The notes beneath the pieces were generated by a model. That model saw only the letters and a list, made by a program, of their open reading frames with translations, was not told the origin of the DNA and searched no databases. Shown here piece after piece: positions 166 through 23,924 of a DNA stretch of 64,000 nt. The DNA is from Vanrija pseudolonga (taxonomy: Eukaryota; Basidiomycota; Tremellomycetes; Trichosporonales; Trichosporonaceae), in assembly GCF_020906515.1 (NCBI RefSeq), contig NC_085849.1, positions 4,340,001 through 4,404,000 on the forward strand. Direction: 5' to 3'. Every line of letters begins with the position of its first letter. The first letter of the stretch is position 1. The position numbers were made by a program, and so were the translations under genes.

Positions 166-1250
166 CTAACGCCTCGCCCAGTCCTCCGCCTTGAGCTCGC
201 CCCCGCGCGCGTCCACATCAGCAACATACTCGTCCCTGGTGCGAAAGCGGACGGCGGCGACTCCGTCCCCGTCGCACGCGGCGGATATCTCAGCTTGCAC
301 ATGTTCTTGGAGCAGCGCCTGCGTGAGCACCGTGTTGGGCGGGTACGCCTGCCGCACGGCGGCTGCAAAGCGGCTGCCTTCGCCAAGGAGCAGCGTCTCG
401 AGGCCGTACAGCGTCACTTGCATATCCGGGCGTCCGATAACCAGGTCGCGCAGGCTCGGTATCACTTGCGTCAGCTTGCCCATCTCGCATCGCGACCTAC
501 TCAGCGCAGGGTTGACCGTCGTCGGCATGACCTCGGCCGGGCGCACGCTGGCGCCGTCGAGCCCCTTCCCACAGCGGCCAGAAGACGACCTTGACCCGCG
601 GCACCTTCTCAAAGCCGGTGAGCAGTCTCCCGGGGCTCTGCAGGAGCCAGCCATGCGTCGGGAGCATGATGACGAGCGTGTCGAGCCTCGCTGTGCTCCA
701 CCGCGTCTCGTGTACCCGGAGGTTCATGTGCAGCCCGTCCATGTTGCGTATGACTGCCTTGCGCGGCGCGACCCCTTGCAGCAGGCTGCAGCGATGGTTC
801 GGAGGGTGCCATGACGGGAGGTGGACGATGCGCAGGGTGTCGAGGTTGGGGAAAAAGGGCGTGTGTCTCCGCATACAGTGCGGCTCGCACATCGACGGGA
901 ACCCGACAAGGGTCAGCACCCGCACATTGGCGAGCAGGCGGGTCTTGAAGTTTGTCGTCACGGCTCTCTCGACGCCGCACAGCAGCCGGTGCTCTTGCCC
1001 CGCGCGTACCGTGATGGTGTGGTACAGGCTCTTGCCGGCCATGTGGTGGAACTCGCGGCTCACGCGCAGGCAGGTGACGAGCGTCGCCGTGTCGGCGTAG
1101 GATAGCACCATGGCGATGGTGTGCGGGCACCCGAGGAGCCCCTCGGCGATCGCGTCCTGCCCAGGTGATCAGCCTCCACGCGGTGATCCTCGGTCAGCTC
1201 ACCTTGAGCGGCTTGGCACACCGGAACAGCTGCGATAGGCTGAACTTCAT
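166..1250 (-). pseudogene. F-box-like array copy 1 (frameshifted)
   Basis: First copy of the tandem family. Exon 1 (1203-1250) encodes 16 residues beginning MKFSLSQLF, followed by a 46 nt intron (1157-1202, GTGAGC donor, CTGAT branch, GCAG acceptor). Exon 2 continues as DAIAEGLLGCPHTIAMVLSY, then TLVTCLRVS and LYHTITV, the family N-terminal module. The frame breaks near 555-585: after VVFWPLW the homology (LYGLETLLL, then the C-terminal domain) resumes one base out of phase and runs to a stop at 166. No GT-AG intron of the right phase fits there. It differs from the other copies in its longer first exon and in a poorly conserved tail that lacks ELDDGL. It is either a pseudogene or carries a base-call error. 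Confidence 0.6.
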
Positions 1251-1693
1251 GGCTGCGAACTGCGAGCTGCGAGCTGCGCGGCGACTGCGAAGAAGAAGGA
1301 CAATGACGAAAGGATTCGCGCGCCGCTGCTGTTGTTCTCTTCGCGACGGCGCGGACCGAGCTCACCTGTCGGTCGCCGAGCCCCGTGGCGCTCGCCGCCG
1401 GCATTGTCCGTTTCAGAGCTTAACTTTGTTCACACTGATGCATGCGACTGACACTGATGTGTGGGGGGAACAGGGAGGCTCGGGTGGAACTATGCACACC
1501 GTCGACGGGTGCGGATGATGTGGCGGTCTTGGACAGATGAGTGGATGGCGGCGTAGACCTTGAAGACGGAGCGATGCGGACTGGTACACAGGCTGGGCCG
1601 TCAGCGACGTCGTCCTGAAGCGACTGGGCCGCCAGATGAGCGACTCACTGGGCTGGCGCCAAAGTTAACCAGACACGCGCGCGCGGGATGACG
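1251..1693. other. Spacer between array copies 1 and 2
   Basis: About 440 bp holding the presumed promoter of copy 1 and the 3' flank of copy 2. I see no convincing open frame, tRNA or repeat in it. Confidence 0.5.
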
Positions 1694-2935
1694 CTACACA
1701 TCGAGCTTGAGCAGCTGACTCTCGAGGCTCGCAACCTGAAGCACCGGGTCCATGTCGTCGTCGATCTCAAACCTGCGCTTGTGGTACTCCTGGGCGTAGT
1801 GCTCATTGAAGGTCTTGAACGTAAAGGTGTTGGGGGTAGCCAATTCTTCGGCCTCACGACAACCGCGACGAATCATGTCCATGGCCACGTCGCGCGTCCA
1901 TTGTGGAGTCAGGATCGCAGGAGAGGATGCTTGCTCGGCCGAGACGCGCCCGAGAAGTCGGGGCGGAATCCAAAACTCCACGGATTCGAGTCCAACCAGT
2001 GTGGCTTGGGTGCCTTCGGTAGTGTAGTCGTCGAGAGTCTCGGTGATAAGGCCTACGTCGAGTGGATCGGACTTCGGAGCGGGGTGCGCACCCCAGTTGC
2101 GTGGGTGCCATTCCTCCAAAGGGTCACGGAAGACGATGGTCTCGAACGGAGCTCGGAGGAGATACGGGACATGCTCGATGGAGCCGTTGCTATTGAGGGC
2201 ATCCTGATTCACTGGGACGATGTAAACTGCCTCTTTCAGCTTCACAGTATTCCATGAGTCGCTGATGGCATAGTACCCCATGTCGAATCCTTGGTTGCGA
2301 AGAACCAGTTTGTTCGGTGTGGTGCTTTCAACGAGGGGGCATATGGCAGCCTCCCACGTTTCTACCTTGGAGGCCAAGTCGCACAAGTCGTGGCAACCGA
2401 AGGGATTCTTGGGAGTAGCCACGAGACGAAGTGTGTCGAGTTGGTGGAGAAGCGGGCCAATGTCTTTGCCGTAGAAATCACACAGGCAGTCGTGGTGAGA
2501 GCCAAGTGATAGGACGCGCACGTATCCCAGCAGCGGAACCTTGAAATTGCGTTCGGTGGGCCAGTAGTCCTCCAGTTCCGGGTAAAGCGTCGTGGTGATG
2601 GTGTCGTCGTCGTCGTCCATTTCGTCGTCAAAGCACTGGCAGTAGATAATCTCGCTATGCCAGTCGTTGACAAACGCGCCGAGGAAGAAGGCTTGCCAGT
2701 TGGCATTGTCGACCCGCACGGTATGGTAGAGGATCGCCCCAGCCTCATGGAAGAAGGTGCTGTTGACGCGGAGACACGTTGCAAGCGTTTCTCGGTGGGC
2801 GGATTGTAGGATGGTGCGGAGAATGTGCGGTTGGAGGACTAGGTCGGCGGGTGTGAGCCCCGGGCGGGTGGTGGGCGACGCGGCCTGATGTGCGTGTCAG
2901 CTCGTATGCACGGCGCAGAGTAGCATGCGCACCAT
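1694..2935 (-). CDS. F-box-like array copy 2
   Basis: Predicted protein of 397 aa. The ATG is at 2933-2935 and is followed at once by a 48 nt intron (2885-2932; GTGCGC donor, AGCTGAC branch, CAG acceptor). The main exon is 1694-2884. The start is chosen because splicing joins M directly to AASPTTRPGLTPADLVLQ, in frame with the F-box-like segment (PHILRTILQSAHRETLATCL), LYHTVRVDNA, VRVLSLGSHHDCLCDFYG and PRKLVLRN. The tail (TFNEHYAQEYHKRRFEIDDD) is a divergent form of the family C-terminus. Function is unknown. F-box-like N-termini usually bind Skp1 in SCF ubiquitin ligases, but that role is inference. It resembles copies 3 and 4 most (LVLQPHIL, IGPLL). Confidence 0.75.
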
Positions 2936-3179
2936 TGTTGTGGGATACTGGGGTGAGACGAGGGTTGTTGTTGAGTTGATGTTTGTTGAGAGTGAGTGGG
3001 AAGAATGAAAACGAAAGACGACGATCAGGTTGGGTGGCGCATGTTGAGTGTCTCGTTGTCGAGTGTGGCGGATTTGACGTCAGTGGCTAGTCGGACCGTT
3101 CTCTCCCCCAGCGCGTAGACGCCAGTAAAACACTCTTTAATAATACTATGTTATTCAATCTGCGGGAGACGACGCTCAA

Positions 3180-4665
3180 TCAGTCGGATTCTGAGTCCGA
3201 GGGGGGTTGCAAACGGGCCTCCAGGTGGTGGGCCAGCCGACATATAACCCAACGGCAGGTGCTGGCGGTGAAGGGGATGCGAGAATGGAACTCCTCGATG
3301 ACGGAGGGATCAAGAAGGCCAGTGTCACCCAGAGTCTTCACAAGGTTCTTCATTTCCTTGTACCCCTCGTTTGGGAGGGCAGAGACGTTGAAAAATTCCT
3401 GGCTCTGGAGGCTTGCCACCATCAGATGCGAGTCAAGACTGTCGTCCAACTCAAACCGCCGCACTTCAGCAGAAAGCTGGTGATATTGGGAAAGACTCTT
3501 GTAATCAAGGGGTTCGTCCTCGCACAGTGCTTCCATTGCACGACTGGAAAGTTCGTCTTTGACGAGTTGTCGCAGTCGTTCGGACGTGATCGGCTCGTCC
3601 GGGTTTTCAAGTTGAAACGCTCTCGTGATCTGACACTCGCCTCCCGTGAGTGGACCGCCAATGTGGAAATCGACAGATTCGAGACCGAAGGCCGTTCCCT
3701 CCACGGTATTGAGGAACGCGGCGATAAAGTCGACGGGGCGAACAGGAACATGTTGAACGGCGGAGTTGACAGTGACAAGGCTGAGGGCATGGTCCCCTAA
3801 AGCGCCCCACACCTCCCACCCGCGGCAGAAGACGACCTTGCAGGGGACATCAAAACGGATCAATTCGTCAAGTGCCTTGACTGTCTCGTTTCGGTACACC
3901 CTTCCATCGGTGGGGAGAATGTAGACTACCTCCTCCAGCCTTGACGGGTTCCAGATGTTATGATGCTCCCGGGTGAGGAACACCGGCCGTCCTCCAACGT
4001 TGCGGAAGACAAGTTTGCGTGGCCTGAGACTGTCAAAGAAGGGACAGTAGATTCGATTATCACAGACAGTGTCGACAGTGAAGGGCGTTAGGGGAGCGGG
4101 CACGACACGAAGCGTATCGAGGTTCTTGAGGAGGGGGCCGATATTCGTGCCATAGAAGTGACAGACGCAGCAATGGTGCGAGCCGAGGGAGAGGACTCGA
4201 ACGTGACCGAGAAGAGCTGCCTTGAAGTTTGTGACGTTGGGGCGGTCGGAGGCTGCGCCCTCGACTTGCTTCTCCTGAGGAGGCGTGGGAAGGAGCTTGG
4301 GTCCGACTTCGGCATCCCATCGCTCGTTGGTGGGTGGCGTGCACTCCTTCCCCTGCATCAGGCCGCATTCAAGCTCCTCCTCGTCGATGTTGGTGCCGAC
4401 AAAGGCCCCGAGGAAGAACTTCTTCATGTTGTGACGGTCGACCCGAACGGTGTGGTACAGGATGGGACCGGCGATCTTGTGGAAGGTCTTGTTGACACGG
4501 AGACACATGGCTAGGGTGTCGCGGTCGGAGGTGAGCAGGATAGCATCGAGGATGTGGGGTTGGAGGACGAGGTGGGCGGGTGGTATCCCAGTGTCGCTGG
4601 GGTGGGGCTCGTCCTGTCGCGTCAGCTCTTGTGCAACACACGGGCTATGTGAGCGGACGCACCAT
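3180..4665 (-). CDS. F-box-like array copy 3
   Basis: Predicted 478 aa, the longest member. The ATG (4663-4665) is followed by a 49 nt intron (4614-4662; GTGCGT donor, GCTGACG branch). The main exon is 3180-4613. The spliced N-terminus reads M-DEPHPSDTGIPPAHLVLQ, then PHILDAILLTSDRDTLAMCL and ILYHTVRVDRHNMKKFF. It has the central VRVLSLGSHHCCVCHFYG, PRKLVFRN, VKxFC-type core and FxxGxExW segments. It differs by a longer C-terminal extension after the ELDDSL motif, ending PPSDSESD. The frame is also open upstream of the ATG (to 4823), but that part reads through the 5' UTR and intron and looks non-coding. Function unknown. Confidence 0.75.
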
Positions 4666-4929
4666 TGCTGGAGGGGCAAAGACTGATAGACGGTGCTTGA
4701 AGTCTTGAGTTGGGTGGGTTGGTTTGTGGTGAGTGAAGAGGTAGAGAGTAAAGTCAAAGGATGAGTGGGATGAGAGAAATTGAAGAAGAGAGAAGTTGAA
4801 GTGACGAGGGGCGACACCGACACTCAACACACACTCAGCACACACACGCCCTCGCCCTCGCCCCCACCGCACACACACTGCACAGGTTCAACGATTCATA
4901 CTACACTCTCGTCGACGATACATGCTGCG

Positions 4930-6374
4930 CTACTCGTCCACCTCGGCGTTCCTCCACAAATGACGCGCCGTGGCAGTCGTGAATGAAACGAGCCCATCGT
5001 GTCCAGCAAGGAGCGACGCATCAAAGTCTTCACAACCACGTTCGGCCCATTTCTCGTTAGCGACCTCCAAAAGCGACCTTGGCGAGACCGGCTTGAACAT
5101 TGCCTGGCTCTCCAACGACGCGACTCGGAGTGTGTCGTCGAGGCCGTCGTCCAGCTCGAACCTGCGCTCCTCGACGGGCAGAAGAGCGTACTCGGCTAGA
5201 GTGTGGAACTCGAAGGGCTTTAACTGGTCTAGCACCTCTTCGCCGATGAGGCCGGCCCAGTACACGGGCCGCTTTATCTCGTCCTTAACGAGCTGGCGAA
5301 GCCGCTCCGAGGTGGTCGACTCGTGGGGATACGCAAGCTGGAACTCGGTGACCAATTCACACTGATCAATGTCGGATGAAATGCCCTTGGTGAAGTGGAC
5401 ACCATCCAGACCGTAGATGGAGCTCGATTCGAGGTCGACCAGGCAATCAATCACATCGATAGGATGCGCAGGGCGACCAATGCCCGAGGTGATCGTGTCG
5501 GGGCGGACTGGGTCGGTCCACACCTCCCACTGACTGTCGAAGATGACCTTGGCGTGATGATTGAACTTTGCCATAGCAACCAGGCTACGTCCAATGTGGT
5601 TCCTGTACACGGCTCCGTCGGTGGGGAGGACATGCACTAGTTCTTCCAGAGTGTCTTGCTTCCACTCGTGGTTCCATCCTTGGCAGCAGAAGAGGGGTTC
5701 CTGCCCGACGTTGCGGAAGACCAGCTTCCTGGGCCGCATGCTATCGAACAGGGGGCAATAGTACCCATTGTCGCAGATGACGTTGACGGTTATTGGCGTT
5801 GCAGGGGTATGGACGATGCGAAGAGTGTCTAGGCGCTTAAGGAGAGGACCAATGCACTGGCCAAAGACGTGGCACATGCAGGCGTGGTGTGAGCCAAGCG
5901 ACAGCACGCGGACATGAGCAAGAAGCTCCGCCTTGAAGTTCGTCGGAGCTCCAGGGATCTGCTCCAGAGGCTCCGTCCGACGGGCGTGGGCATACAACGA
6001 CGGTCCTTCCCATGCTGCTGATTCGGGGCGGTCCGAGAACCGGTCGCAGCTGCTCCGCCCATCGAGCAAGTTGCACATCCTGATCTCCTCGGTGCCTTCG
6101 GTGCCGACGTACACGCCGCGGAAGAAGGCCTGGATGTTGCTCTGGTCGACGCGGACAGTGTGGTAGAGCAGCGGGCCGGCCTGCGCGAGGAAGAGCTGGT
6201 TGACGCGCAGACATGTCGCGAGTGTCGCACGGTCGGACGACTGGAGGATGGCATGAAGGATGTGCGGTTGGAGGATGAGGTCGGCGGCGGAGGGCCCCAC
6301 GTCAGGGGAGGCGCCTGTTACCTGGTGGGGTCAGAGTTGGTTCCATTGCTGAAGGTGCTCAGCCGGCTCACCAT
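4930..6374 (-). CDS. F-box-like array copy 4
   Basis: Predicted 464 aa. The ATG is at 6372-6374, with a 50 nt intron straight after it (6322-6371; GTGAGC donor, CTCTGAC branch, CACCAG acceptor) and a main exon at 4930-6321. The spliced N-terminus is M-VTGASPDVGPSAADLILQ, then PHILHAILQSSDRATLATCL. A nearer ATG at 6344-6346 lies inside the intron and leads to a stop. The family core is intact: LLYHTVRVDQSNIQAFF, VRVLSLGSHHACMCHVFG, LRIVHTP, PRKLVFRN, FELDDGL. The C-terminus is extended (RSLLEVANEKWAERGCEDFD). Closest to copy 3. Function unknown. Confidence 0.75.
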
Positions 6375-6812: not shown

Positions 6813-8008
6813 TCATTCACGCCATGACGGAAGCCGGTCGTGGAGCTCGTAGAGGCGCTCTGACTCGGGGAGGGCGTAATACTCGTCGAGGGTCTGAAAC
6901 ATCATGTCGTGGCTGAAGTCGTCGCCGCTGTCTTCTGACTGTTCCCCCTGGAGAGCACCGGTGAGAAGCTCATCCTTGACGAGCTGTCGAAGGCGGCCAC
7001 TGTCGAGGTTGACGGACGGGAACCGAACGGTTTCGAGCCCGACGACCGTGCATGCTTCGCGGGCGCCGCGCAGGGTTGTGATGACATCTTCTGGAGAGGG
7101 GTGACCCAGAGGCCTAGTGAGTGCGTTGGCATGGGAGGGGGGTGTTTTCCGCCACTCTTCCCAGTCGCTGAAGATGAGACACCGGATCAATTGACCCCAG
7201 CTGTACATCTCTTCCGTGATGGATACGCGGCTCCTCAAGTAAAAGTATGCAGCCGGGGGTAGAACCACTGTTATCTCCCCGACGTCGCGGTATTTGCATT
7301 GATTGAAGTGGTCGTAGGGCCAGGTGAACAGGAACTGCCTGTTGTCATCGAGGTTGCGCAGCACCAGTTTGCGGGGAGCAAGGTTCGTGAAAAGGCGACA
7401 TTCGATGTCGATACACGATTCGTCGCACAGAGTGCCAAGCTCGCCGTCAGAATTGAGGCAGGGAACAGCACAAAGTGTGTGAAGGTTGTAGAGGAGGGGC
7501 GCGACGTGCTCGCCGTAGTGGTAGCAGGCGCAGGTGTGGTGTGTCCCGACGGACAGTACTTGAACGTGGGCCAGGAGGCTTCCCTTGAAGTTTGGCGCGG
7601 TGAAATCCGGAACCCGCTGCCTGGTCGCATTCGGGCTCGCAGTGGCCGTTGCCTCACGAATCAAGTTGTCATCGCTGTCGTACAAGGGATAGCATTCGCA
7701 ATTGTCCAGGGTGCTGGCGGGACACGGGCTATCCTCGCTCACGCTCGTTCCAGCTAGCGCGCCGCAAAAGAATCCAGCAATGTTGGACCCGTCGATCCGC
7801 ACTGTATGGTGGAGCACCTTGCCGGCCTCCTCGTGGAACTGCTTGCTGACCCGGAGACAGGTGGCAAGGGAGGAACGGGCGGCGTAGTGGAGGATGGTGG
7901 CCATGAGGTGGGGCGAGTTGACGATGATGCTCGCGGCCAGATACTGCGCATGTGTGCCAGGTGGCGGCGGCTGCGGGTCAGTAGTGCCGGATGATGTGTA
8001 CTTGCCAT
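6813..8008 (-). CDS. F-box-like array copy 5 (GC-AG start intron)
   Basis: Predicted 386 aa. The ATG (8006-8008) is followed by GCAAGT, so the start-codon intron here (7971-8005, 35 nt) would be of the GC-AG class; the branch CTACTGAC and acceptor CGCAG are normal. The main exon is 6813-7970. The spliced protein begins M-PPPPGTHAQYLAASIIVN, then SPHLMATILHYAARSSLATCL. Family core: VLHHTVRIDGSNIAGFF, VQVLSVGTHHTCACYHYG, LCDESCIDIEC, PRKLVLRN, and the tail TLDEYYALPESERLYELHD. No other in-frame ATG gives a complete N-terminal module, which supports the GC donor. Function unknown. Confidence 0.7.
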
Positions 8009-8443
8009 TGTGGATAAAGGTGGAAGGAGTGAAGAAGAGTGATGATGTGAAGTGCAAAGGAAGGTTGGTGTTGTTGGTTGTGAGTGGGTGAGTGCAAGGT
8101 GGTGAGAAGAGGGCGCGTCGGGCGCAGGGGGAGGCAAAAGTGTTGGTGGCGGGACGCGCCTGATTTTGACTTTGCTGCACGCGACTCAACCACAGACAAT
8201 TCAGCAAGCCACTGTAGCTTTCACAGCCACTCTGTATCGTGACATCACATGCATGCACCATCTTACGCATGCCGAGTTGCCGCCATGTCCATTCCTACTC
8301 AGGTTTTCATGTCCGTATCATGTCTGCAAGCTGCGGTAAGCTCGTCGCCCAGCCTCACTTCAGTCTTGTACTCACACACAACTGCATGTTCGTCTCAGAA
8401 GGCTCACGGGCTGGGGTATCACTTGGGGTTGAGAACAAGGTGA
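8009..8443. other. Spacer between array copies 5 and 6
   Basis: About 435 bp; presumed promoter of copy 5 and downstream flank of copy 6. Nothing else recognised. Confidence 0.4.
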
Positions 8444-10121: not shown

Positions 10122-11510
10122 TCAAAGGCCATTGATCTTGGTCTCGTACATGAAATTGCTGTCCTCGGCGGCGATGTACCTAGAGCTCGTGACCTTGGTC
10201 TTGGACTCGGTCATCTCGAGCCACGGAGGAAGGTCGTCGTCGAGATCATACAGGCGCTCGAGCTCGGGCAGCGCGGCGTACTCTTCCAGAGTCTTGTACT
10301 CGATGGACTTGGGAAAGTCGTTGTCTTCATACTCGTCCTGGTCAAAGGCCGCCTGGAGGGATCCGGTCCGAAGCTCGTCGCGGACCAGTTGGCGGAGACG
10401 GTCACTGTCGAGGTGTACGTCGGGGAAGAAGTGTTCGAAAGTGCTCACGAGGTCGTCATGTTCAGGGACAAACTCGACAGTCTCGAGGCCGCAAATCGTG
10501 TTCCGGGGATCGGTGTACATGCACCAGTGGCTGGCAGGGTAGACAATGTCGGAGGGCGTAAGCGGCGCCTTGGACAGATGCATGGCCTTGAAAATTCGGT
10601 CCACTTGCGAGCCGGGGGGCAGCCGCCACACCTCCCAGTCGTCATGAAAGATGACCTTGACTTCGGCCGTTGCGAAAAAGTACTCTGCAGTACTGATGAG
10701 GCCACCGTTCCCGTGACGGCGCCCATCAATGGGGACGACCCAGACGACCTCCAAGAGGCCTCCTTCATTCCAATGGTCGCCCTCGGGCCAGGTGGTGAAG
10801 TGGGAGTCGCCGTCGTCCAAGTTGCGCAGCACGAGTTTGGCAGGGGCCACGTTCTGGAAGATGAGGCAGGTATTGGCGTCGTCACAGAGCGGCTTGAGCT
10901 TGTATGTCGTGTCGGGCGCCGGCACGATGCGCAGTGTGTCGAGGTTGGGGAGAAGAGAGCCGACGTGTTCACCATACAGATGACAGACGCAAGTGTGGTG
11001 CGAGCCCAGGGAGAGGACCTGAACGTGGGCGAGGAGCGGGGCCTTGAAGTTGGTGGTGCGGCCCGCGGCCTTCCTCTTGCGCTTCTGGGCATTCTTCTTC
11101 TGGCCGCGCGTCTTCCCCTGGCCCGTTGGAAGGGCATTCTCGACAGTCGTCTTGTTGATGTCCTTGTCCTTGTCCTTGTCCCTTTCCGTGAAGCGCCGAC
11201 ACGCGTCGCCGTGACAGCCGCTCTCCTCAGCGAAGCCCGAGCCGACTAGCGCGCCGAGGAAGAAACCGTCGAGGTTGTATCGGTCGACCCGGACGGTGTG
11301 GTAGAGTACCTTTCCAGCGGCGTCGTGGAGCTGCTTGCTCACGCGGAGGCATGAGACGAGGGTCGTGCGGGTGGCGGCGTACTGCATTATCCCGTCGACT
11401 ATGTGTGGCGAGTTGAGGATGATGAGCGCTGGCGGGACCGTGTCCGCGGGGGCGGAGGTCGACTGAGACAAGGTGGTGAGCTGTGGGAATGCTCTAGCGA
11501 GGCCTACCAT
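10122..11510 (-). CDS. F-box-like array copy 7
   Basis: Predicted 447 aa when the 45 nt intron after the ATG is removed (ATG 11508-11510; intron 11463-11507, GTAGGC donor, GCTCACC branch, TCAG acceptor; main exon 10122-11462). The intron is a multiple of three without a stop, so a read-through form starting MVGLARAFPQ is possible. The family module is very regular (NSPHIVDGIMQYAATRTTLV, HDAAGKVLYHTVRVDRYNL). A variable insert carries CHGDACRRF and a lysine/arginine-rich run (GKTRGQKKNAQKRKRKAAG) that looks like a nuclear or nucleolar targeting signal. The tail after ELDD is extended by about 30 residues. Function unknown. Confidence 0.75.
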   Translation of the reverse strand: MVGLARAFPQLTTLSQSTSAPADTVPPALIILNSPHIVDGIMQYAATRTTLVSCLRVSKQLHDAAGKVLYHTVRVDRYNLDGFFLGALVGSGFAEESGCHGDACRRFTERDKDKDKDINKTTVENALPTGQGKTRGQKKNAQKRKRKAAGRTTNFKAPLLAHVQVLSLGSHHTCVCHLYGEHVGSLLPNLDTLRIVPAPDTTYKLKPLCDDANTCLIFQNVAPAKLVLRNLDDGDSHFTTWPEGDHWNEGGLLEVVWVVPIDGRRHGNGGLISTAEYFFATAEVKVIFHDDWEVWRLPPGSQVDRIFKAMHLSKAPLTPSDIVYPASHWCMYTDPRNTICGLETVEFVPEHDDLVSTFEHFFPDVHLDSDRLRQLVRDELRTGSLQAAFDQDEYEDNDFPKSIEYKTLEEYAALPELERLYDLDDDLPPWLEMTESKTKVTSSRYIAAEDSNFMYETKINGL

Positions 11511-11809
11511 GACGTCCTTGCACTGATGATGTGAGGTGATGGTGTGAGACGACGTTGTTGGTTGATAACAATGGCGGGCGGTGGGTTGAGGTGGACAGTG
11601 AGAAAGAGAAGGTGACGATTGGCGGGCGTTGAGTGAGTCAGTAGTGCCCTTAATGTCCTGCAGTGTCCACCCACCCAGCATACAACACGTCTAACGCATT
11701 CATTCTTTATCATGTCTACACAATTCGGCACCAGTAACAACTGGCTTGTAAACAGGAACGCGAAGGGACGGCCGCAGGGCTACTGTATCTGCCACATCTG
11801 GTCGGAGCA

Positions 11810-13306: not shown

Positions 13307-14578
13307 TCACGGGAGCCATCCATATGAGGCCGTCGCCAACGGCTGGCCCTCGGCAGGGGAAGGTAACGACAGGCCGTCGTCGAGCTCGTGGCGGCGCTCG
13401 ACTTCTGGAAGGGCGGCGTACTGGTCGACGGTCTTGTACTTGATATACGACTTCCAGATGACACTCCTTTTTCCACCCCTAGCAATGGCAGTCTCGATGA
13501 AACAGCTCCGAATCTGATTCTTGACAAGCTGGCGGATGCGACTGAGGTGGAGCAGGTGGGGGTGGTATTTCAGAAAGCTGTTCACGAGGATATCGGCCAC
13601 GAAGACCACACGCTCCAGCCCGAACATTGTGTACGTCTTGAGCGGGTGCTTCGCCCAAGAGCCGACAATCTCAACGATGAGGGAGGGGCGGAAGGTGGGG
13701 CGCGTTGATTTTTGGCGAGGGCCGACGGCGGCAGGATGGTGCCACACCTCCCACTTGTTACTGAAGATGAAGCTGACGCGGTCCGCTGCGGCAAAGTATG
13801 TGCCAGTAAGGCTCGGTGCGCCGCTGCTGCTCATCGCTCCGTTGGTGGGGATGACCACGACCACCTCTTCGAGACAGCCCAGGTTCCAGAGGTTGCCGGG
13901 CCAGGAGTTGATGTGGTAGGGCGAGCTGTCCAGATTGCGCAGGACAAGCTTGCGTGGCTTGAGGTGCTTGAAAAGGAGACAAGCGTCGCCGCCGTCGCAC
14001 AGAGGCTTCAGCTGGTACCCCGACGCGGGTTGTGGTACTATGCGCAGCGTGTCAACGTTGCAGAGGAGGTCGCCGATGCGCCTGTCGTATGTGTGACACA
14101 CACAGCTGTGGTGCGAGCCCAGTGAGAGGACTCGGACATGGGCAAGCAGTCGGGCTTTGAAGTTTTTGATGGTGTGGGCGTTGTTCTTGTTCCGCTTGTA
14201 CTTCGTAGTTGAAGCAGCCTGTGAGGGAGAGCCTGCCGGCTTCTCCGCCTCGTTGAAACGCGTGCAGGTGTCGCCCTTGCCAGAACACGCCATGTCCTCC
14301 GACGCGACGCCGACCAGCGCCCCGCGAAATCAGGCGGCGAGGTTGTGCTCGTCGAGACGCACGGTGTGGTACACCACCTTGGCGGCCGGGCGTTGGAGCT
14401 GCTTGCTGACACGGAGTAGCGTCACAAGTGTCGCGTGGTCCAAATGGCCTATGATCGAGTCGACTAGGTGCGGCTGGTTGAGAACAATGTGCGCGGGGTG
14501 GACTGGGACGAGGGAAGCGGCACTACTGGTCTGGTCCTGGAGGTTAGACACGGCCGTGGTTGTTGTTCTGCTTACCAT
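13307..14578 (-). pseudogene. F-box-like array copy 9 (in-frame stop)
   Basis: The gene has the family layout: ATG 14576-14578, a 39 nt intron (14537-14575; GTAAGC donor, TCTAAC branch, CCAG acceptor) and a main exon at 13307-14536. The exon contains a TGA at about 14330-14332, where relatives read NLAGFF (here NLAA-stop-FRGALVG). All other blocks downstream are well preserved: VRVLSLGSHHSCVCHTYD, PLCDGGDACLLF, PRKLVLRN, a lysine/asparagine-rich insert and the tail TVDQYAALPEVERRHELDDG. A single nonsense codon in an otherwise intact copy implies very recent loss, a base error, or translation from an internal ATG (14291-14293) that would drop the F-box-like part. Confidence 0.65.
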
Positions 14579-14833
14579 GGTCTCTCAGTGCCAGCGATTT
14601 GAGATAGTGACGATACGTCGCTGAAGTGGTGTGTAATGGTTGAAGTATAGTTGATGTGTGAAGCGCACGAGCACGAGGCAATTTACGAGGCACCGGCGGG
14701 TGGCGGTGCCCCACTGACTTGTTGAGTGTGGACTCACCAACCAATGCTTTGACAATGACGTGCAGTACATGTGTTGTCTACGAACATCATCACCACCCCC
14801 TCTCCCTCTCTTGCCTTGTTCAAACATATTCAC

Positions 14834-16115
14834 TCAGAGCAACACCTCGAGCCCATCATCGAGCTCGCCCAGGCGCTCAGACTCCGGGATGGCAACGTAC
14901 TCGTCGAACGTCCTATACTCGATACCCTCGTGTTCGCGGGGATCTTCATAGCTGCCCCCGCACATAGCGACCGTCAGCGTATTGGTATGGAGCTCGTCTT
15001 TCATGAGCTGCACGAGGCCGTCGCCATCGAGGGGAACATGCGGGAATTGCTGGCTGAAGGTCATCGCGAGAAAGTCGTAGTCGTAGTTGGGCTCCGGGGC
15101 GCGGTGACCAGTCTGGAACGCCACCTTCTCGAGGCCGTACACCGTGTTGCGGATGCCGATGTGCCGGACCAGATACGGACGACCTCGACGACCTCGGCTG
15201 GGAGGAGCCATTCGCGGCGGCGTTCCGGGGCTTCCTCGTCCTCGTCGGCGTCGGGGCGCGGCGCAGTTTGCTCTTTCGGGTACGGGTGCCACGCCTCCCA
15301 CTCGTTGTAGTAGATGACCTTGACGGCCGCCGAAGGCGGAGTCTTGAAGAACTTGCCCCCGTCGTTCGCGAGGTGACACGCAGCGCTGTACCTCTTCCCA
15401 TTCGTCGGCATGACGTACACAAGCTCCTCAAGGCGGTTAAAGCGCCACCTGCTGTTGACCGGCCAGTCGCACAGGATGCGGGTGCTGTCCTCGAGGTTGC
15501 GGAACACGAGCTTGCGCGGCGCGAGGCGCTCAAACAGGGGGCACGAGCCGTGGGTGTAGTCGCAGACCTGGCGGAGGTGGTGGGCCGCCTTGGGTGCGGG
15601 GACGATACGAAGCGTGTCGAGCTGGGCAAACAACGAACGCGCGTGCCAGCTGTACTTGACGCAGAGGCACGCCTCGTGCGAGCCGAGAGACAGGACGCGA
15701 ACGTGGGCGAGCAGCCGCAGCTTGAAGTTGCGGCGAGGGAGCGGCTGCCTCCTCGATGCGAGCGTCTTTTCAATGGTACTCCATGTCCCGTGCAGGCAGC
15801 CGTCAGCAAAGCAGCTACTTTCCGTACACAGCCCCACCAGGGCGCCGAGGAGGAAGCTGGCGAGGTTGGAGCTGTCGACCCGGACGGTGTGGTAGAGAAA
15901 CTTGCCACCGGCGTCGTGCAGCTGGGCGTTGACACGGAGACATGATGCCAGTGTTGCCGCGCTCGCGTGCCGGAGGATATTGTCCACAATGTGCGGGGTG
16001 TTGATGACAATACGCTCTGGGGTGAGGGCGGTGGCGGAGGGGGTGGGTGTCGGCGACTTACGGCGTCAGACTTGGGCGGCTGGACAATGGCAGGCAGCCT
16101 GGAGACACTTACCAT
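14834..16115 (-). pseudogene. F-box-like array copy 10 (frameshifted)
   Basis: ATG 16113-16115; probable 56 nt intron (16057-16112; GTAAGT donor, TCTGAC branch, AAG acceptor) giving M-SPTPTPSATALTPERIVIN, then TPHIVDNILRHASAATLASC. The core VRVLSLGSHEACLCVKYS, LRIVPAPKAAHHL and PRKLVFRN is intact to about 15180. After EVVEVVRIW homology continues in another frame (VRHIGIRNTVYGLEKVAF, then TFDEYVAIPESERLGELDDG) to a stop at 14834. No intron of suitable phase fits the junction near 15165-15185, so I read this as a one- or two-base frameshift. Confidence 0.65.
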
Positions 16116-16420: not shown

Positions 16421-17696
16421 CTACGCCGCCGAGTGTTGCACCAGCCCATCGTGGAGCTCGTACAGGCGCTCGTGTTCCGGCAGTGCAGCGTACTCCGCCG
16501 CCGTGTGGTACTCGATATGCTCTTCTATGTCCTTTAAGAAGAAGTCGTCATTGCAGCCGTCATCGTCGTCGTCGTCGTTATCGTTGTCCTCGTCTTCGTT
16601 ATCGTTGCCCTCGTCTTCGTCTTCATCGTCGTCGTCCTCCTCCTCCTCGTCCTCGTCGTCTCCGTCGTACTCATCCGTCTCGATTAAATCGCGTGCCGCA
16701 CCCACCCGGAGCTCGGCGCGCACGAGCTCGCGCAGCAACTCGTTGTCGAGGGGTTCGCCGGGAAACCTCTCCTCGAAGTCTTCCGCCATCTCGCTGTCGC
16801 CGGCGTGGAAAGTGAACGTCTCGAGGCCGTAGACTGTCGTGTGGATGTCGGTCCGCTTACAAATCTCGGCCAGGGGGTATACTACGTCCTCGGGAATGAC
16901 GAGCGTGCTAGCGTGCTTGGTCAACCGCCGCTGGCGCTCTCCCGCCGGCCACACCTCCCAGCCATTATGAAAGATGACCTTGACGCGAGTCACGCCTGGC
17001 GTGGCGAAGCGCTCCCCGCTGTCCATCAGCTCTCCGTCGGGGTACACGCGCCCGTTGGAGGGCAGGACCCAGACCACCTCTTGCAGGCGCGCGGCGTTCC
17101 AGTCGCCCAGGGGCCACGAGTACCGGTGCCACATCGTGCCGTCGATATTGCGGAGGACGAGCTTGCGCGGCGTGAGGTGGTGGAACAGCGCGCATATCGC
17201 CTCGTAGTCGCACAGCGGCTCGAGCTTGCGCCGGGAGACGGAGGTCGGGACGATGCGCAGCGTGTCGAGGTTGCGCAGGAGAGACGCGGCGTGCGGCCCG
17301 TACAGGTCGCACACGCACGTGTGGTGCGAGCCGAGGGACAGGACGCGTGTGTGCGCGAGCAGCGGTGCCTTGAAATTACGGTGTGCGCGCGGCTGGTCAT
17401 TGTCCGCGGCCTCGGCGGCGCGCTTGCACTGAGACTCCTCGCTCACCCCTGTGCTGACGAGCGCACCGCGGAAGAAGGACGCGAGGTTGCCCTTGATCAC
17501 GCGCACGGTGTGGTACAGCAACCTGCCGGCTGCAGCGTGGAGCTGGCTCACGCGCATATACGACACGAGGTCGGGACGTGTCGCGTGGGACACGATCATG
17601 TCGACGATGTGCGGCGAGTTGAGCAGGATGCTCGCTGCGGTGATGGTTGTCGCCTGGGTGGGTCAGCGTTGTACTGCGCGAGGGGACGCTTACCAT
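16421..17696 (-). CDS. F-box-like array copy 11 (acidic insert)
   Basis: Predicted 411 aa. ATG 17694-17696, 40 nt intron (17654-17693; GTAAGC donor, GCTGACC branch, CCAG acceptor), main exon 16421-17653. Spliced N-terminus M-ATTITAASILL, then NSPHIVDMIVSHATRPDLVS; the following helix lacks one residue relative to siblings (VSQLHAAAG). Core VRVIKGNLASFF, TRVLSLGSHHTCVCDLYG, PRKLVLRN. Near residues 325-370 there is an almost uninterrupted run of Asp/Glu/Asn encoded by a GTC/CTC-type triplet repeat (about 16555-16670). Tail TAAEYAALPEHERLYELHDG. Function unknown. Confidence 0.75.
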
Positions 17697-18144
17697 TGTT
17701 GTGTCGAGTACTGGGTGATGTTGAAAGAAGAAATGTTTGTGTGTTGTCGAGAAGGACAGGACAAAGGACAGAAAGTCTGTGCAAACAGTGTGGGGCATGA
17801 GTGGCGGCGTGGCGACCACGCGCGTGGCTGTATGCACTTTGCTCACTCGGCAACATGGAACCCATCCGCATTGTCTTTCTCTTTGTCAGGAATACATGCA
17901 CGACATTCATTCATCGTCATCGGCTTCAGTCTTGAGAGCAAAGCGCCATCTCGCGCACCTCTGTCGAGCTCGTGACGTCGCGGCGGGCGGTTGACCCAGC
18001 TCGGACCGTCCACCTCGCACACTATCCGAGTCAATGAGCGATAATCTGGTGCATCGCTGCAGTTTTGACATCGCCACGGTCTTCTACTCGATCGCTGCTG
18101 TAAACCTCACGCCACCGCGCCCACTCCCCACGCCCCTCGACGCT
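17697..18144. other. Spacer between array copies 11 and 12
   Basis: About 450 bp; presumed promoter of copy 11. No coding signal beyond chance frames. Confidence 0.4.
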
Positions 18145-19362
18145 CTACACCGAGTACCACTCGAGTCCGTCGTCGAGCTCGTACAGGCGCGCCGACTCCG
18201 GTTGAGCGTGGTACTCAGCGAGCGTCTTGTACTCGATGCACTCCGGCTTGCCGTTGTCCTCGTACCTGTCGGTGTTGACCGTGGCGCGCAGGGCGCCGGA
18301 GCGCAGTTCGTCGCGCACAAGTTCACGGAGGCGGTCGCTAGTGAGGCGCACGTGGGGAAAGAAGGTTGTGAAGTGGGCCTCCAGCCAGTCCGCCCCGGGC
18401 TTAAACTGAAGATCCTCGAGGCCGTAGACCGTGTTGTGGATGTCGGAGTTCCAGCACAGGTCGCCAACAGTGAAGATGATGTTGTCTGCAAAGTGGTGCC
18501 CACGCTCCTTGGCGGGCTTCTCGTTCTTCTCGTTTTTGTTGACACGCGGGGGATCCCACGTCTCCCATTCGTCATGGAAGGTAACCTTGACTCTGGCCAC
18601 CTTGTCGTTGTTGAAATACCCCTCCGGTCCCTCGTCTAGCAGTTCAGGGATATCTCCAGAGTTGTAGTGGTCCCCACTGGAGTGCATGACCCAGACCACC
18701 TCTTCTAGTTGCTCGGTGTTCCAGTCGTCAAAGCACGCGCCCGGCCAGCCGAGTCGATGCCAGCTCCTCTCATTCATGTTTCGGAGGACAATCTTGCGCG
18801 GTGCAAGGTTCCAGAAGATGACGTATGTCGCCCCCCCGGCATCGCATAGCCAGTCCAGCTTCCAGAGGGGACGATCGAGGTAGTCCATTCTGGGGACAAT
18901 GCGCAGCGTGTGGACGTTGGGCAGGAGGCTGGCAATGTGAGGGTCGTATCCGCAACAGTCGGCGTATTCGTGCGACCCAAGTGAGAGGACGCGCGTGTAG
19001 TTGAGCAGTGGTGCCTTGAAGTTGCGGTGTGGGGGCGGCGATTTCATCGAATCCATGATCGCCTTCCTCGCCCGAACAACCTCCCAGTCCTGCTCCTCCG
19101 TGTCATCGCTCCAATCCTTCCCGACGAGGGCTCCGCGGAAGACGTCAAACATGTTGACCCCGTCGACTCGCACGGTATGGTACAGTGCCTTCCCCGCGGC
19201 GGCGTGGAACGCCTCGTTGACGCGGAGACACACAGCCAGCGTTGGATCCGTGGCGTGCCGCATGATCGCGTCGACGAGGTGCGGCGAGTTGCAGATGATG
19301 CTTGCGGCGGTTATATCGGCCTGGTTGATCAGCTGAGGCATGCTGGGTAGGGGGCTTACCAT
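18145..19362 (-). CDS. F-box-like array copy 12
   Basis: Predicted 392 aa with the start-codon intron removed (ATG 19360-19362; intron 19321-19359, 39 nt, GTAAGC donor, CTGAT branch, ACCAG acceptor; main exon 18145-19320). The intron is in frame and stop-free, so retention would add 13 residues (VSPLPSMPQLINQ). Module: ADITAASIICNSPHLVDAIM, TLAVCLRVNEAFHAAAGKAL. The Cys-rich block differs (SHEYADCCGYDPHIASLL), so this copy lacks the CVC pair of its neighbours. Tail TLAEYHAQPESARLYELDDG. The open frame runs on upstream to 19824 through the spacer, but that part looks non-coding. Function unknown. Confidence 0.75.
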   Translation of the reverse strand: MVSPLPSMPQLINQADITAASIICNSPHLVDAIMRHATDPTLAVCLRVNEAFHAAAGKALYHTVRVDGVNMFDVFRGALVGKDWSDDTEEQDWEVVRARKAIMDSMKSPPPHRNFKAPLLNYTRVLSLGSHEYADCCGYDPHIASLLPNVHTLRIVPRMDYLDRPLWKLDWLCDAGGATYVIFWNLAPRKIVLRNMNERSWHRLGWPGACFDDWNTEQLEEVVWVMHSSGDHYNSGDIPELLDEGPEGYFNNDKVARVKVTFHDEWETWDPPRVNKNEKNEKPAKERGHHFADNIIFTVGDLCWNSDIHNTVYGLEDLQFKPGADWLEAHFTTFFPHVRLTSDRLRELVRDELRSGALRATVNTDRYEDNGKPECIEYKTLAEYHAQPESARLYELDDGLEWYSV

Positions 19363-19591
19363 GATAATGTGTTGAATGGATGATGTTGAAGAAGGAAGAA
19401 GTGTTGAGTGTTGTCGAGAATAAAAGGCAGAACGAAATTGGCGATCGATCTGGGTGCAACGCGTCGGTGGCGACTCGACGTCGACGCGTCGTGGGCGCTT
19501 CTCTCGAGCTCGCGCGCTTTCCCTCCTCTTCAGTCTCGACACAATAATGCATCCTGTTATCGGTGACGTTTTGTTGGCTACGTGTGCGGCA

Positions 19592-20947
19592 CTACATGAT
19601 GTTGCAGAAGACGTGGATGGCCGTCTTGAGAGGCTCGCGGCAGTTGGGGTGGAGCACGTATGGCTCTCCGCGCCTCCCAGTGGGCGCCGGCGGGGCGGGA
19701 ACGGGTGTCGGTGTCGGGGGTGCCTGTGTCGGTGTCGGTGTCGGCTTGGGAGGCTCGGGCGGGTCGTCGCGCATTCCGTCGTCGAGCACGCCGCGGCTCT
19801 CGGGGTCCAGTGCGTATTCTTCAAGGGTGTGGAACACGACAGGCGCGGGTTCGGTGATGCCGTCGTTGTTGCTGTCGCGAGCGGAGGCGTCGAGCTTGTC
19901 GTGTACCAACTGGCGCAAGTGGGCGCTATCGCAGCGCAGGTGAGCGGAGTGGGCGAACATGCGGCCTATCTCGTCCCCATAGTCGCGGAGCGCGACGCGC
20001 TCCAGGCCGACAACAGTGGGCGAGGGCGAGCGACAGGTGTCCCCAGCGCCGCCAATGGCATGGACCACGTCCGAAGGGTTGACCGGCGGGAGCCTACGGC
20101 GGCGAAGATCCCACCCTGCGGGCGGCACCCATACCTCCCAGTCGGCGAAGACGTAGGTGTGGGGCGTAGGTCCGAAGAAGCCCCGGGAAAACTTGATCCC
20201 CCGGCCGGCGTACCCCGCCCCAGAGGTAGGGAGGACCCACACGACGTGCTTGAACGGCGGCCGCTCGTCGTACCGCGCGCGCAGGGGCCAGCCGGAGAGC
20301 GCGCCGGCGTGGGCATCGAGGTTGCATAGGACAAGCCGCCGTGCCACCGCGCTGGCGAAGACCGCACACTCGCGCGCGTCGCATAGTCGCTCGAGAGTGT
20401 GGTCGGACGCTGGGGCAGGCACAATACGCAGCGTGCGGAGGTTGGGCAAGATGGTGGCGAGGTGCGGCGCGTAGAGACGGCAAGCGCACACGTGGTGCGA
20501 CGACAGCGAGAGGACGCGGACGTAGGCGAGGAGGGGGGCCTTGAAGTTTGTCGTGTTCGCGCCGCTGTCGACCGTCTTGGCTTCCTCCTCCTCCTGCTCC
20601 AGTTGACGCTGGAGCTTCCCGCGCGAGAGGTACATGACCGTCTCGTGCGTGAACCGGGTACATCCCGCCCCCGAGCACCCCGTCTCCTCGGTGCGCGTGC
20701 CGACTAGCGCGCCGAGGAAGAAGGTGGCTAGGTTGGACCGATGGACGCGGACAGTGCGGTAGAGGAGCTTGCCTGCGCTGTCGTGGAGGAGGTGTACGCG
20801 CAGGCAGGACAGCAGGGTGCGCCGGTCGAGGGGGGCGAGGATCGCTTCGACGATGTGCGGGATTTGGAGGAGGATGTGCGCTGGTGTGAGTGAGGGTGGG
20901 GGCTGCGTGGCCTTGGTGTTAGAGGAGTAGGGGGGATGATGCGACAT
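19592..20947 (-). CDS. F-box-like array copy 13 (start intron lost)
   Basis: Predicted 451 aa in one exon. ATG 20945-20947 is followed by TCGCAT rather than GT, so no intron can begin there. The next 33 bases are in frame (SHHPPYSSNTK), still contain CTCTAAC and end in AAG, as if a former intron had become coding. Module: LTPAHILLQIPHIVEAILAP, DRRTLLSCLRV, KLLYRTVRVHRSNLATFF. It keeps CSGAGCTRF, VRVLSLSSHHVCACRLYA and LCDARECAVF. The EYALDPESRGVLDDGM tail is followed by a Pro/Thr repeat (PTPTPTQAPPTPTPVPAPPA) and a C-terminus ending HVFCNIM that siblings lack. Function unknown. Confidence 0.75.
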   Translation of the reverse strand: MSHHPPYSSNTKATQPPPSLTPAHILLQIPHIVEAILAPLDRRTLLSCLRVHLLHDSAGKLLYRTVRVHRSNLATFFLGALVGTRTEETGCSGAGCTRFTHETVMYLSRGKLQRQLEQEEEEAKTVDSGANTTNFKAPLLAYVRVLSLSSHHVCACRLYAPHLATILPNLRTLRIVPAPASDHTLERLCDARECAVFASAVARRLVLCNLDAHAGALSGWPLRARYDERPPFKHVVWVLPTSGAGYAGRGIKFSRGFFGPTPHTYVFADWEVWVPPAGWDLRRRRLPPVNPSDVVHAIGGAGDTCRSPSPTVVGLERVALRDYGDEIGRMFAHSAHLRCDSAHLRQLVHDKLDASARDSNNDGITEPAPVVFHTLEEYALDPESRGVLDDGMRDDPPEPPKPTPTPTQAPPTPTPVPAPPAPTGRRGEPYVLHPNCREPLKTAIHVFCNIM

Positions 20948-21245
20948 TGTGATGCGACGTTGTTGGTGTGTAAGAGTTAGGAGTGAGTTAGTTGAGTTCG
21001 GAGAATGATGCAGGGTGGCGGGTGGCGAGTGGCAGCTGACTGGTGGCAGTCGAAGCACTTGCACCGCCCTTTCCTGCGCCATCGCTTTCACATTGCCTGG
21101 TTCAACACTTCACCGTGTCTACACAGTGTCATCTTGCATAGCATCCTGCTTTCAACCAGTGTCGTCTTGCTGGGTGTCAACGGTGAATGTACAACACGCC
21201 CGCCTACGCTATGGCAAACCAATGTGGCGGACTCTTCCTGTGATC

Positions 21246-22709
21246 CTAAAACCCACTGAAAGACGTCTTGAGGTCGAACATGCCATTGTGCTGCGGCACA
21301 AACTCCACGCCCAGCTCGACGCCATCACGTTCCGCCATCTCCAGCGCCTCGCGCATGCCGTCGTGCAGCACGCCGTGGCTCTCCGGCAGGGCGGCGTACT
21401 CGTCCAGGGTGTGGTACGTGATCCACTCCGGGCAGTCGGCGGGGTCGTACTGGCCCGTGAGGAGCGCACACTGCAGGGCCTGGGTACGCAGCTCGTCGCG
21501 CACCATGCGGAGGAGGCGGTCGTTGTCGAGGTGTACATGCGGGAAGTGGTGCTTAAACGTGCCGACGACGTCGTCGGCGCCGCGGGCGGTGAACTGGAGC
21601 CTCTCGAGCCCGACGACCGTCGGCGGCGGCCCGAACGACGGGCTGCCCACGACGTAGATCACGTCCGACGGTAAGACGGGGAAGCGCTTGTTGTTGACCA
21701 CGTCGAAGAAGTTGGCGAGGCTCGAGCCCGCCGGGGCGCGCCATAGCTCCCAGTCGGCAAAGACGTACGTTGTCGCTGCGCGCCCGAATTGCCCCGCGCC
21801 GATCAGCCCGCCGTCGTCGCCGTACCGCTCGCCCTTGGTCGGGAGCACCCACACCACCTCGGCGAACGGCGCGTCGCCGTCAAACGGGAGGTACTGGGGC
21901 CAGCTGGGTCCCGACCCGCCGTCGAGGTTACGCAGCACGACGCGGCGCGGCGTTGCGCAGGCGAAGAGCGCGCACTCGCGCGCGTCGCACAGCGGCTGGA
22001 GGGTGTGCGTTGATGCCGGGGCGGGCACTATGCGCAGCGTGTCGAGGTGACGGAGGAGGGAAGGCATGTGCGGTCCGTAAAGGGTACACACGCAGCCGTG
22101 GTGCGCGCCGAGGGAGAGGACGTGGACACGGGCGAGGAGTGACGCCTTGAAGTTGGTGACGGACGCGCTCTTCTTCATTTTGGCCTTACGCGCGTTCTTC
22201 TTCTGCCCGCGCGTCTTTCCCGGAGACTGCGCGGGCACGCCGACCTTCTCGCCAAACCGCGCGCAGCTGGCCCCCGCGCACCCCGTATCCTCATTGGTAT
22301 CGGTACCGACCAGCGCCCCGCGGAAGAAGGAGGTGATGTTGAAACGGTCCACCCGGACAGTGTGGTAGAGCACCTTGCCCGCCGCGTCAAGCCACGTCGC
22401 GTTGACGCGCAGCGCGGTGACGAGTGTCAGGCGGTCCGCGTGGGCGAGGATCGCGTCCACGATGTGCTGCGAGTTGGCGATGATGCTCCCGGCGGTAGCG
22501 GCCTTCGTGGTGAGGCGGAGCTCCGTGCGGGCCGCGGCGTGGAGTGGCTTCACATACAGACATGCGACCAGGGTGCGCTTGTCGACGTCGGCGAGGAGTC
22601 TGTCGACGACGCGCGGGATCTCGAGGAGGTGGTGGGCCGGCGACGTGCTGGGCGGGTGATTGGGGTTGCTCTGGCTGGTTAGAGGGGACGACGGGGGAGA
22701 ACGTACCAT
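21246..22709 (-). CDS. F-box-like array copy 14 (double N-terminal module)
   Basis: Predicted 475 aa with the start-codon intron removed (ATG 22707-22709; intron 22671-22706, 36 nt, GTACGT donor, CTCTAAC branch, CCAG acceptor; main exon 21246-22670). Two F-box-like modules lie in tandem. The first (SPAHHLLEIPRVVDRLLADV, DKRTLVACLYVKPLHAAAR) breaks off before the LYHTV block. The second (SIIANSQHIVDAILAHADRL, VLYHTVRVDRFNITSFF) is complete. The insert carries CAGASCARF and a basic run beginning GKTRGQKKNARKAKMKK, shared with copy 7. The tail TLDEYAALPESHGVLHDGM resembles copy 13. It looks like the product of unequal crossing-over. Function unknown. Confidence 0.75.
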   Translation of the reverse strand: MVRSPPSSPLTSQSNPNHPPSTSPAHHLLEIPRVVDRLLADVDKRTLVACLYVKPLHAAARTELRLTTKAATAGSIIANSQHIVDAILAHADRLTLVTALRVNATWLDAAGKVLYHTVRVDRFNITSFFRGALVGTDTNEDTGCAGASCARFGEKVGVPAQSPGKTRGQKKNARKAKMKKSASVTNFKASLLARVHVLSLGAHHGCVCTLYGPHMPSLLRHLDTLRIVPAPASTHTLQPLCDARECALFACATPRRVVLRNLDGGSGPSWPQYLPFDGDAPFAEVVWVLPTKGERYGDDGGLIGAGQFGRAATTYVFADWELWRAPAGSSLANFFDVVNNKRFPVLPSDVIYVVGSPSFGPPPTVVGLERLQFTARGADDVVGTFKHHFPHVHLDNDRLLRMVRDELRTQALQCALLTGQYDPADCPEWITYHTLDEYAALPESHGVLHDGMREALEMAERDGVELGVEFVPQHNGMFDLKTSFSGF

Positions 22710-22886
22710 TGTGATAGTCGGGAAGTGAGTGGTGATGAGCGAGTGAGTGGGCAAAGCGATGTTTATCGTTCACGAGGCAGCCGTAGTGTTGCGTGGGCGC
22801 AGTGCCGATCCGCCGGGCACCACTCACTGCGGCATCGAAGCGTGACCTCAGCACATGCATCTCCACACGCCCAGCTGCGCCCAGCC

Positions 22887-23924
22887 CTACACTCCCATGC
22901 TCCCGTCGTCGAGCTCGTACGCGCGCTCGGCCTCATCGAGCGCGGCATAGTGCCACATGTGAAACGTGTTGTGCGCCAACAGCTCTCTCTCGGTGCGGCT
23001 CAAGGCGTTGTTGAACACGGCAACTATCTTGTCTGGAGTGAGGGCCTGCCCGCCAGGGATGAAGCGACGCCAGCGGGCCAAGTCGTCGGTGTTTATGTGG
23101 GTATCAACTTCGTCCATCGGCAGGTCCGAACGTAGGGCGAGAAAGTTGGCGGCCATGTTCTGGGCCAACTCGAGGACCATGTCGATGTACTGCGAAATGA
23201 CGGTCCGCGGGACGCCATAGGTGAGGAAGGACACATGTGTGCCTGACACTTCCCAGGTCTCGTGGTAGATGAACTTGGCCTTGGCAGTGGGCAGGAGCGC
23301 GAGCTCGCCGTCGTTGTTCGTCGGTTGGCGGCGGGAACGTCGCCCGTCCGTCGGGAGGACCCACACGATCTCGTGCGGTGCGCGCGCAGGCCAGCGCGAG
23401 GGGAGGTAGTCTTCGCGTTCGTCGAGGTTACGAATGACGAGCTTGCGCGGCGCGAGCTTGCCCACGAGGCGGCAGTACGTCGAGTGTCCGCAGAGTGGGA
23501 GCAGGCGGAGGCCAGTGGTGTCCGGCGAGCGGACGATACGCAGCGTGTGCAGGTTTGGCAGGAGGCCTGCCGGGCCCGGGCTGCACACGCCGGGGAAGGG
23601 AGCGTGCGAGCCGAGCGAAAGGACGCGGACATGGGCGAGGAGCGGCGTCTTGAAGTCGCTGCTTGTTGGGCGGGTGGTGAGCGCGTAGCCTGGCCAGAGG
23701 AAGGTGCGCAGGCTGGACGGGAGCTGCGCGCTGCGGAAAAAGGACGCCATGGTCCCCGAGTCGACGCGGACAGTGTGGTACAGCCGCTTGCCGGCGCTGT
23801 CGTGCAGTGCCTTGATCCGCAGGCAGGGCACGAGCGTGCTGCGGTCGACGGAGGCGAGGATTTCGTCGACGATGTGTGGGACGTTGAGGACGAGCGCGCG
23901 GGGGTCGGGTGCTGTGGTCGTCAT
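22887..23924 (-). CDS. F-box-like array copy 15 (divergent end copy)
   Basis: Predicted 345 aa, one exon, ATG 23922-23924 (ATGACGACC, no donor). The frame is open 87 bases further up, but only from a GTG. Module: ALVLNVPHIVDEILASVDRS, TLVPCLRIKALHDSAGKRL, YHTVRVDSGTMASFF. Core VRVLSLGSHAPFPGVCSP, LRIVRSPDTTG, PRKLVIRN, VWVLPTDGR. The middle is rearranged and shortened, the CVC pair is missing, and the tail reads HYAALDEAERAYELDDGS. It is the shortest and most divergent member and closes the array on this side. Function unknown. Confidence 0.72.
   Translation of the reverse strand: MTTTAPDPRALVLNVPHIVDEILASVDRSTLVPCLRIKALHDSAGKRLYHTVRVDSGTMASFFRSAQLPSSLRTFLWPGYALTTRPTSSDFKTPLLAHVRVLSLGSHAPFPGVCSPGPAGLLPNLHTLRIVRSPDTTGLRLLPLCGHSTYCRLVGKLAPRKLVIRNLDEREDYLPSRWPARAPHEIVWVLPTDGRRSRRQPTNNDGELALLPTAKAKFIYHETWEVSGTHVSFLTYGVPRTVISQYIDMVLELAQNMAANFLALRSDLPMDEVDTHINTDDLARWRRFIPGGQALTPDKIVAVFNNALSRTERELLAHNTFHMWHYAALDEAERAYELDDGSMGV

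Follow-up and report, generated by a model that had tools for sequence, protein, structure and literature searches.

What do the similar open reading frames (ORFs) that crowd the left end of this stretch of Vanrija pseudolonga DNA encode, and how did they multiply? The stretch, 64,000 nucleotides at C1:4340001-4404000 of a 24.9-Mb genome (Trichosporonales), is called the window below. Six-frame ORFs, DNA repeats and a family profile agree on 15 paralogous copies, here c1 to c15, which follow one another head-to-tail along the minus strand from window 166 to 24137; this bears out the 15-gene tandem array of a first-pass annotation. We propose that they are very probably substrate receptors of Skp1-cullin-F-box (SCF) ubiquitin ligases with a likely leucine-rich-repeat (LRR)-like body, and that the family grew by tandem duplication under birth-and-death evolution.

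The family profile, made from array copies and homologues and applied to selected stretches of the genome, matches all 15 window copies, 12 of them in one uninterrupted frame (c2-c8, c11-c15) and three in frames that are broken in this assembly. The DNA repeat family D3 traces c2-c15 in register, and its 13 start-to-start intervals measure 1413-1831 bp; the regularity noted in the first-pass annotation stands, the mean being 1.6 kb rather than about 1.5 kb. The sequence blocks quoted there, PHIVD, CLRVS, LYHTVRVD, VRVLSLGSHHTCVC, PRKLVLRN, VYGLE and TLEEYAALPE..ELDDGL, are all present in the alignment (A1, 32 rows), which leaves out P0002, P0004, P0023, c1, c6, c9 and c10 and holds c3, c11 and c12 twice, as window and public versions.

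Sequence comparison ties the N-terminal module to the F-box by way of relatives. Direct Pfam matches are weak in most copies scanned: c1 reaches 24.8 bits against PF12937 (F-box-like; cut-off 24.3 bits) when searched in six frames (window 1007-1114) and 22.0 bits as a whole ORF, and six of the 32 aligned rows match weakly. The family profile, in turn, matches ORFs in a tandem cluster at C5:1573139-1589962 and one ORF at C1:4078808-4079083. Among the 51 places listed by the six-frame search, six in the C5 cluster and the C1 place lie above the PF12937 cut-off, though for two of the C5 places the margin is small and the score includes adjacent matches. When five C5 members are scored as whole ORFs, a single one passes, three reach 20.3-22.4 and the fifth is without a match; the C1 ORF passes. 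Aligned by hhalign with nine C5 ORFs, one of which appears frame-broken at its N-terminus, the family matches over nearly its full length, from the F-box to the C-terminal tail (probability 99, E 4.6e-18). The N-terminal module is homologous to Pfam-recognised F-box proteins, and the degenerate F-box suggested by the annotation is thereby supported. The C5 cluster shares even the tail (TMDEYLAEPG there, TLEEYAALPE here), yet it differs from the array in its LPxE-type F-box start, in its separate branch of the tree and at alignment column 209, where, of three rows compared, two have tyrosine instead of cysteine.

Other families were considered. The annotation had set a single-function enzyme family against its own reading; no enzyme family reaches a curated cut-off among the members scanned, most plus-strand copies and outposts lying outside this Pfam protein scan. 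A single member, P0018, matches DUF3760; the match falls on the F-box stretch and, at 20.3, stays below the cut-off of 26.6. A genome search for DUF3760 found none, but its controls gave no match either. Matches such as that to DNA_pol_phi (E 0.31) are weak and of low complexity, and fall on the acidic run of c11.

As the Pfam scores are weak in most copies, though the C1 ORF passes, as do some C5 members, and as the LPxE-like F-box start is gone from the array copies, these could be former F-box proteins working outside SCF, which have lost Skp1 binding and now act as LRR-like binding scaffolds or inhibitors. However, few parts are as well conserved as the F-box, across paralogues as well as orthologues, which is unexpected for a lost function. 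Over nine orthologue pairs, c9 giving no F-box residues, identity is 78% in the F-box (263/336) and 81% at residues 153-200 (352/432), compared with 52-69% elsewhere. Moreover, according to the available text of PMC12680543, the F-boxes of the C. tropicalis KSS antidotes are not conserved in sequence, and yet these proteins enter a complex with SKR-1, the Skp1 homologue. We consider the loss of SCF function improbable.

The structure check suggested by the annotation was made on a model of c7, and the fold comparisons mostly place its N-terminus on known F-boxes. With the whole model, F-box proteins rank first, mostly in register and with middling Z, although three D3/MAX2 rows align away from the F-box. 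The model has repeated strands and helices, and LRR proteins are among its fold matches; Pfam LRR gave no match in the proteins scanned. Foldseek alone returned nothing at E <= 0.001; much of its list was made up of pyruvate carboxylases, none of which appears in the 50 re-aligned rows listed for the whole-model comparison. A fold search with a model of the F-box only gave no match at E <= 0.001, and a sequence search against solved structures gave two chance-level matches (E 0.53 and 0.9). From the model, the body is most likely an irregular LRR-like solenoid. The F-box/LRR receptors Skp2, FBXL2, FBXL5, D3/MAX2 and COI1 likewise have an N-terminal F-box followed by a strand-loop-helix solenoid; unlike them, the array proteins are without a Pfam LRR match and have a degenerate F-box start, a variable linker after the F-box and a conserved set of one histidine and three cysteines.

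We infer Skp1 binding, ligase activity, targets and differences in target between copies as follows. Through its N-terminal helical module each protein would bind Skp1, for which one locus was found in the genome (C4:790987-791168), and would so serve as an exchangeable receptor of an SCF ligase; the C-terminal solenoid and the variable loops would bind target proteins, which would be ubiquitinated and then destroyed by the proteasome. Local tandem duplication would expand the family, and birth-and-death evolution would keep old, diverged and mostly constrained copies, with lineage-specific gains and occasional pseudogenes. The copies are listed below by window coordinates; P numbers denote homologous proteins, from public gene models and metagenome contigs alike, and partners are the metagenome-contig proteins with which copies pair in the tree.

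166..1250, minus strand: c1, divergent; a frame change near 560 leaves it broken or misassembled; probable exons by eye, exon 1 1250-1203, intron 1202-1157, exon 2 from 1156
1694..2896, minus strand: c2, frame intact; long branch in the tree
3180..4823, minus strand: c3, frame intact; partner P0018, with P0017 a further relative
4930..6330, minus strand: c4, frame intact; partner P0021; public model P0004 (LOC62_01G001627) joins c5 and c4
6813..8294, minus strand: c5, frame intact; ATG followed by a GC-type donor, GCAAGT; partner P0016
8444..9640, minus strand: c6, frame intact
10122..11690, minus strand: c7, frame intact; ATG at 11510; corresponds to P0001; the structure-modelled copy
11810..13012, minus strand: c8, frame intact; public model P0002 (LOC62_01G001630) joins c9 and c8
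13307..14584, minus strand: c9, in-frame TGA near 14330; partner P0007 is open at that site
14834..16065, minus strand: c10, frame change near 15200; partner P0014 is full length
16421..17662, minus strand: c11, frame intact; acidic insert; public model LOC62_01G001631
18145..19965, minus strand: c12, frame intact; ATG at 19362 or 19341
19592..21109, minus strand: c13, frame intact; likely ATG at 20947
21246..22769, minus strand: c14, frame intact; two tandem F-box-like modules
22887..24137, minus strand: c15, frame intact; ATG at 23924; in the tree a long branch outside the rest of the array

The two modules of c14 are profile matches at ORF residues 33-80 (E 2e-5) and from residue 82; by eye, its metagenome partner P0005 also has a second, upstream F-box-like module. 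A coding repeat at window 16558-16668 yields the long acidic run of c11.

The annotation had attributed the array to repeated unequal crossing-over. Pairwise identity among 14 of the 15 window copies is 29-54% (median 36%), and neighbours are more alike than non-neighbours (0.408 vs 0.357; Mantel r 0.47, p 0.0001, with none of 9,999 shuffles reaching r). Tandem duplication by unequal exchange fits this neighbour similarity, but the duplications are not recent and the copies are not homogenised: the same 14 copies show no sign of recent gene conversion, the best 90-nt window being 83% identical. In the tree nine window copies each pair with one metagenome-contig protein, c3 having a second close relative, and six consecutively numbered copies of V. 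albida fall as three in a clade beside c13 and c14, two in a pair of their own and one weakly with c7 (86/65). The tree omits P0001, P0009, P0013 and P0022, which are doubles of window copies, the fused models P0002, P0004 and P0026, and matches shorter than 220 residues, which include c1, the plus-strand copy at 4325462, P0028 and P0031; two genes stand in it twice (P0029 is plus6 and P0025 is plus9), and P0029 and P0033, both from V. pseudolonga, are tagged 'lgn'. The whole reads as old tandem duplication followed by birth-and-death evolution. Over eight pairs, nonsynonymous divergence (dN) is 0.41-0.61 and synonymous divergence (dS) 0.9-2.1; as dN is below dS the proteins are constrained, and as dS is near saturation the rates are rough. 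Constraint is strongest on the F-box and the strand core: paralogue comparison shows the body strands to be as conserved as the F-box, the variation falling in loops, in helices and in a linker that is 11-140 residues long. This pattern does not point to the LRR strand face as a fast-evolving surface.

That variation, together with the tandem arrangement, the occurrence so far in Vanrija and metagenome contigs only and the fast divergence of orthologues (50-80% overall identity vs 93% across 229 residues in a single C5 F-box pair, the metagenome contigs perhaps stemming from more than one organism), would suit an intracellular surveillance repertoire. As in nematode and plant F-box expansions, the receptors would then degrade viral, transposon or selfish-element proteins, a role argued for other systems in the available text of PMC12680543. 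However, dN is below dS and dS near saturation, and relaxed constraint accounts for the same pattern; we hold surveillance to be possible but rather unlikely. The host range itself comes from protein searches scoring the 7,995 and 7,992 closest candidates, in which genomes without predicted proteins may be missed.

Sixteen alignment columns are at least 90% one residue among 61 rows, the rows being related and two genes counted twice. They include H171 (59/61), C176 (59/61), C209 (58/61) and C215 (60/61), in a family in which cysteine makes up just 2.3% of residues, and the resulting H-x4-C ... C-x5-C pattern resembles a putative metal site. Human FBXL5 carries an Fe-S cluster in its LRR part. 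A bolder version of the defence reading, to which we give only a small chance, is that Zn or Fe-S at this site locks the first solenoid repeats and perhaps acts as a metal or redox sensor; the fast-evolving loops and linker would then pick out foreign or selfish proteins to be degraded, as KSS do with worm toxins.

The worm parallel raises a further possibility, namely that the array copies are themselves antidotes of toxin-antidote selfish elements, each with a toxin gene, since C. tropicalis has F-box antidotes of such architecture (available text of PMC12680543). Here the family ORFs nearly fill the 1.6-kb spacing, and no second repeated gene per unit was seen among ORFs of at least 150 aa, shorter or distant partners falling outside that check; we regard this reading as highly improbable. 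In the same source, the KSS/KSL proteins combine a hard-to-recognise F-box with a solenoid that structurally matches Skp2 and COI1, lie in genomic clusters and evolve fast and largely species-specifically, all of which recalls the array; KSS, however, are SCF antidotes linked to toxins, a linkage that the array does not show, and we treat the parallel as an analogy.

The starts of the genes have a feature of their own. In 18 of the 25 array copies with a located N-terminus an upstream ATG directly abuts a splice-donor-like GTRNGY or GCAAGY, compared with 121 among 5,000 windows drawn at random in that region, a somewhat flattering contrast as these windows were not chosen for start codons. An intron is needed to put this ATG and the body in frame in eight window copies (c2-c6, c8, c10, c11), and the frame-keeping acceptors of c8 and c10 are not of CAG/TAG type; from these signals, the ATG-abutting intron is probably spliced. 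Its being overlooked is one possible cause of the public models P0002, P0004 and P0026, each of which joins two adjacent copies in one protein, so that the family is easily miscounted.

The single orientation claimed for the array holds within the window but not beyond it. Eleven further copies lie on the plus strand at C1:4317993-4334958 and end about 5 kb to the left of the minus-strand array, so that the two arrays face each other across this spacer. Other groups and single copies are found with the profile at C1:4083599-4095572, 4139048-4144144 and 4230254-4264998, giving about 40 family loci within 0.3 Mb of C1 in the stretches scanned; a protein search of the whole genome with one copy gave nothing off C1 at E <= 0.001 among the best candidates scored. 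The spacer holds at least one gene, of SIS-domain type (PF01380, 105 bits; L012:8029-8745, plus strand), whose product we take, by eye, to resemble bacterial sugar-phosphate isomerases. On the right the array is bordered by an RRM gene (PF00076, window 23921-24580) directly upstream of c15, whose stop-to-stop stretch overlaps the RRM ORF. Window 39357-60796 holds ordinary metabolic neighbours (an MFS transporter, an MBOAT acyltransferase, a fungal transcription factor, a Thi4-like protein and homogentisate dioxygenase), and no Rfam family reaches its gathering score in the window. PF12937 also marks tandem F-box-like groups at C3:4129877-4143505, C3:4183493-4197174 and C7:2191725-2206353; in the stretches scanned there, the best matches to the family profile have E above 1.

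Plants and nematodes are the best-known hosts of large, fast-turning F-box families (available text of PMC12680543). The Caenorhabditis expansions, like the array, arose by species-specific tandem duplication with some loss, and animal genomes hold 39 to 1,426 F-box homologues each, according to the accessible part of PMC8665587; here a 24.9-Mb yeast genome has about 40 loci of one family. In the accessible part of PMC7991009 the F-box totals of other fungi span 19 (Cryptococcus neoformans) to 63 (Fusarium graminearum), against about 40 loci for this one family in V. pseudolonga, counting methods differing. The term F-box is absent from the main text of a Trichosporonales comparative paper as far as that text was available (PMC12820176), the only paper found in a literature search for Vanrija and F-box concerns ataxin-2, and among the F-box titles listed none is on this family.

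The array thus consists of F-box-like genes. Such genes are familiar, but the family is diverged and its host is new; the interest lies in the size of the family within a small genome and in the conserved histidine and cysteines. This near-invariant set is a concrete structural prediction open to test. With one Skp1 locus found and a single family counting about 40 loci in 0.3 Mb, this compact yeast is also a genetically simple setting for finding the targets of such F-box families.
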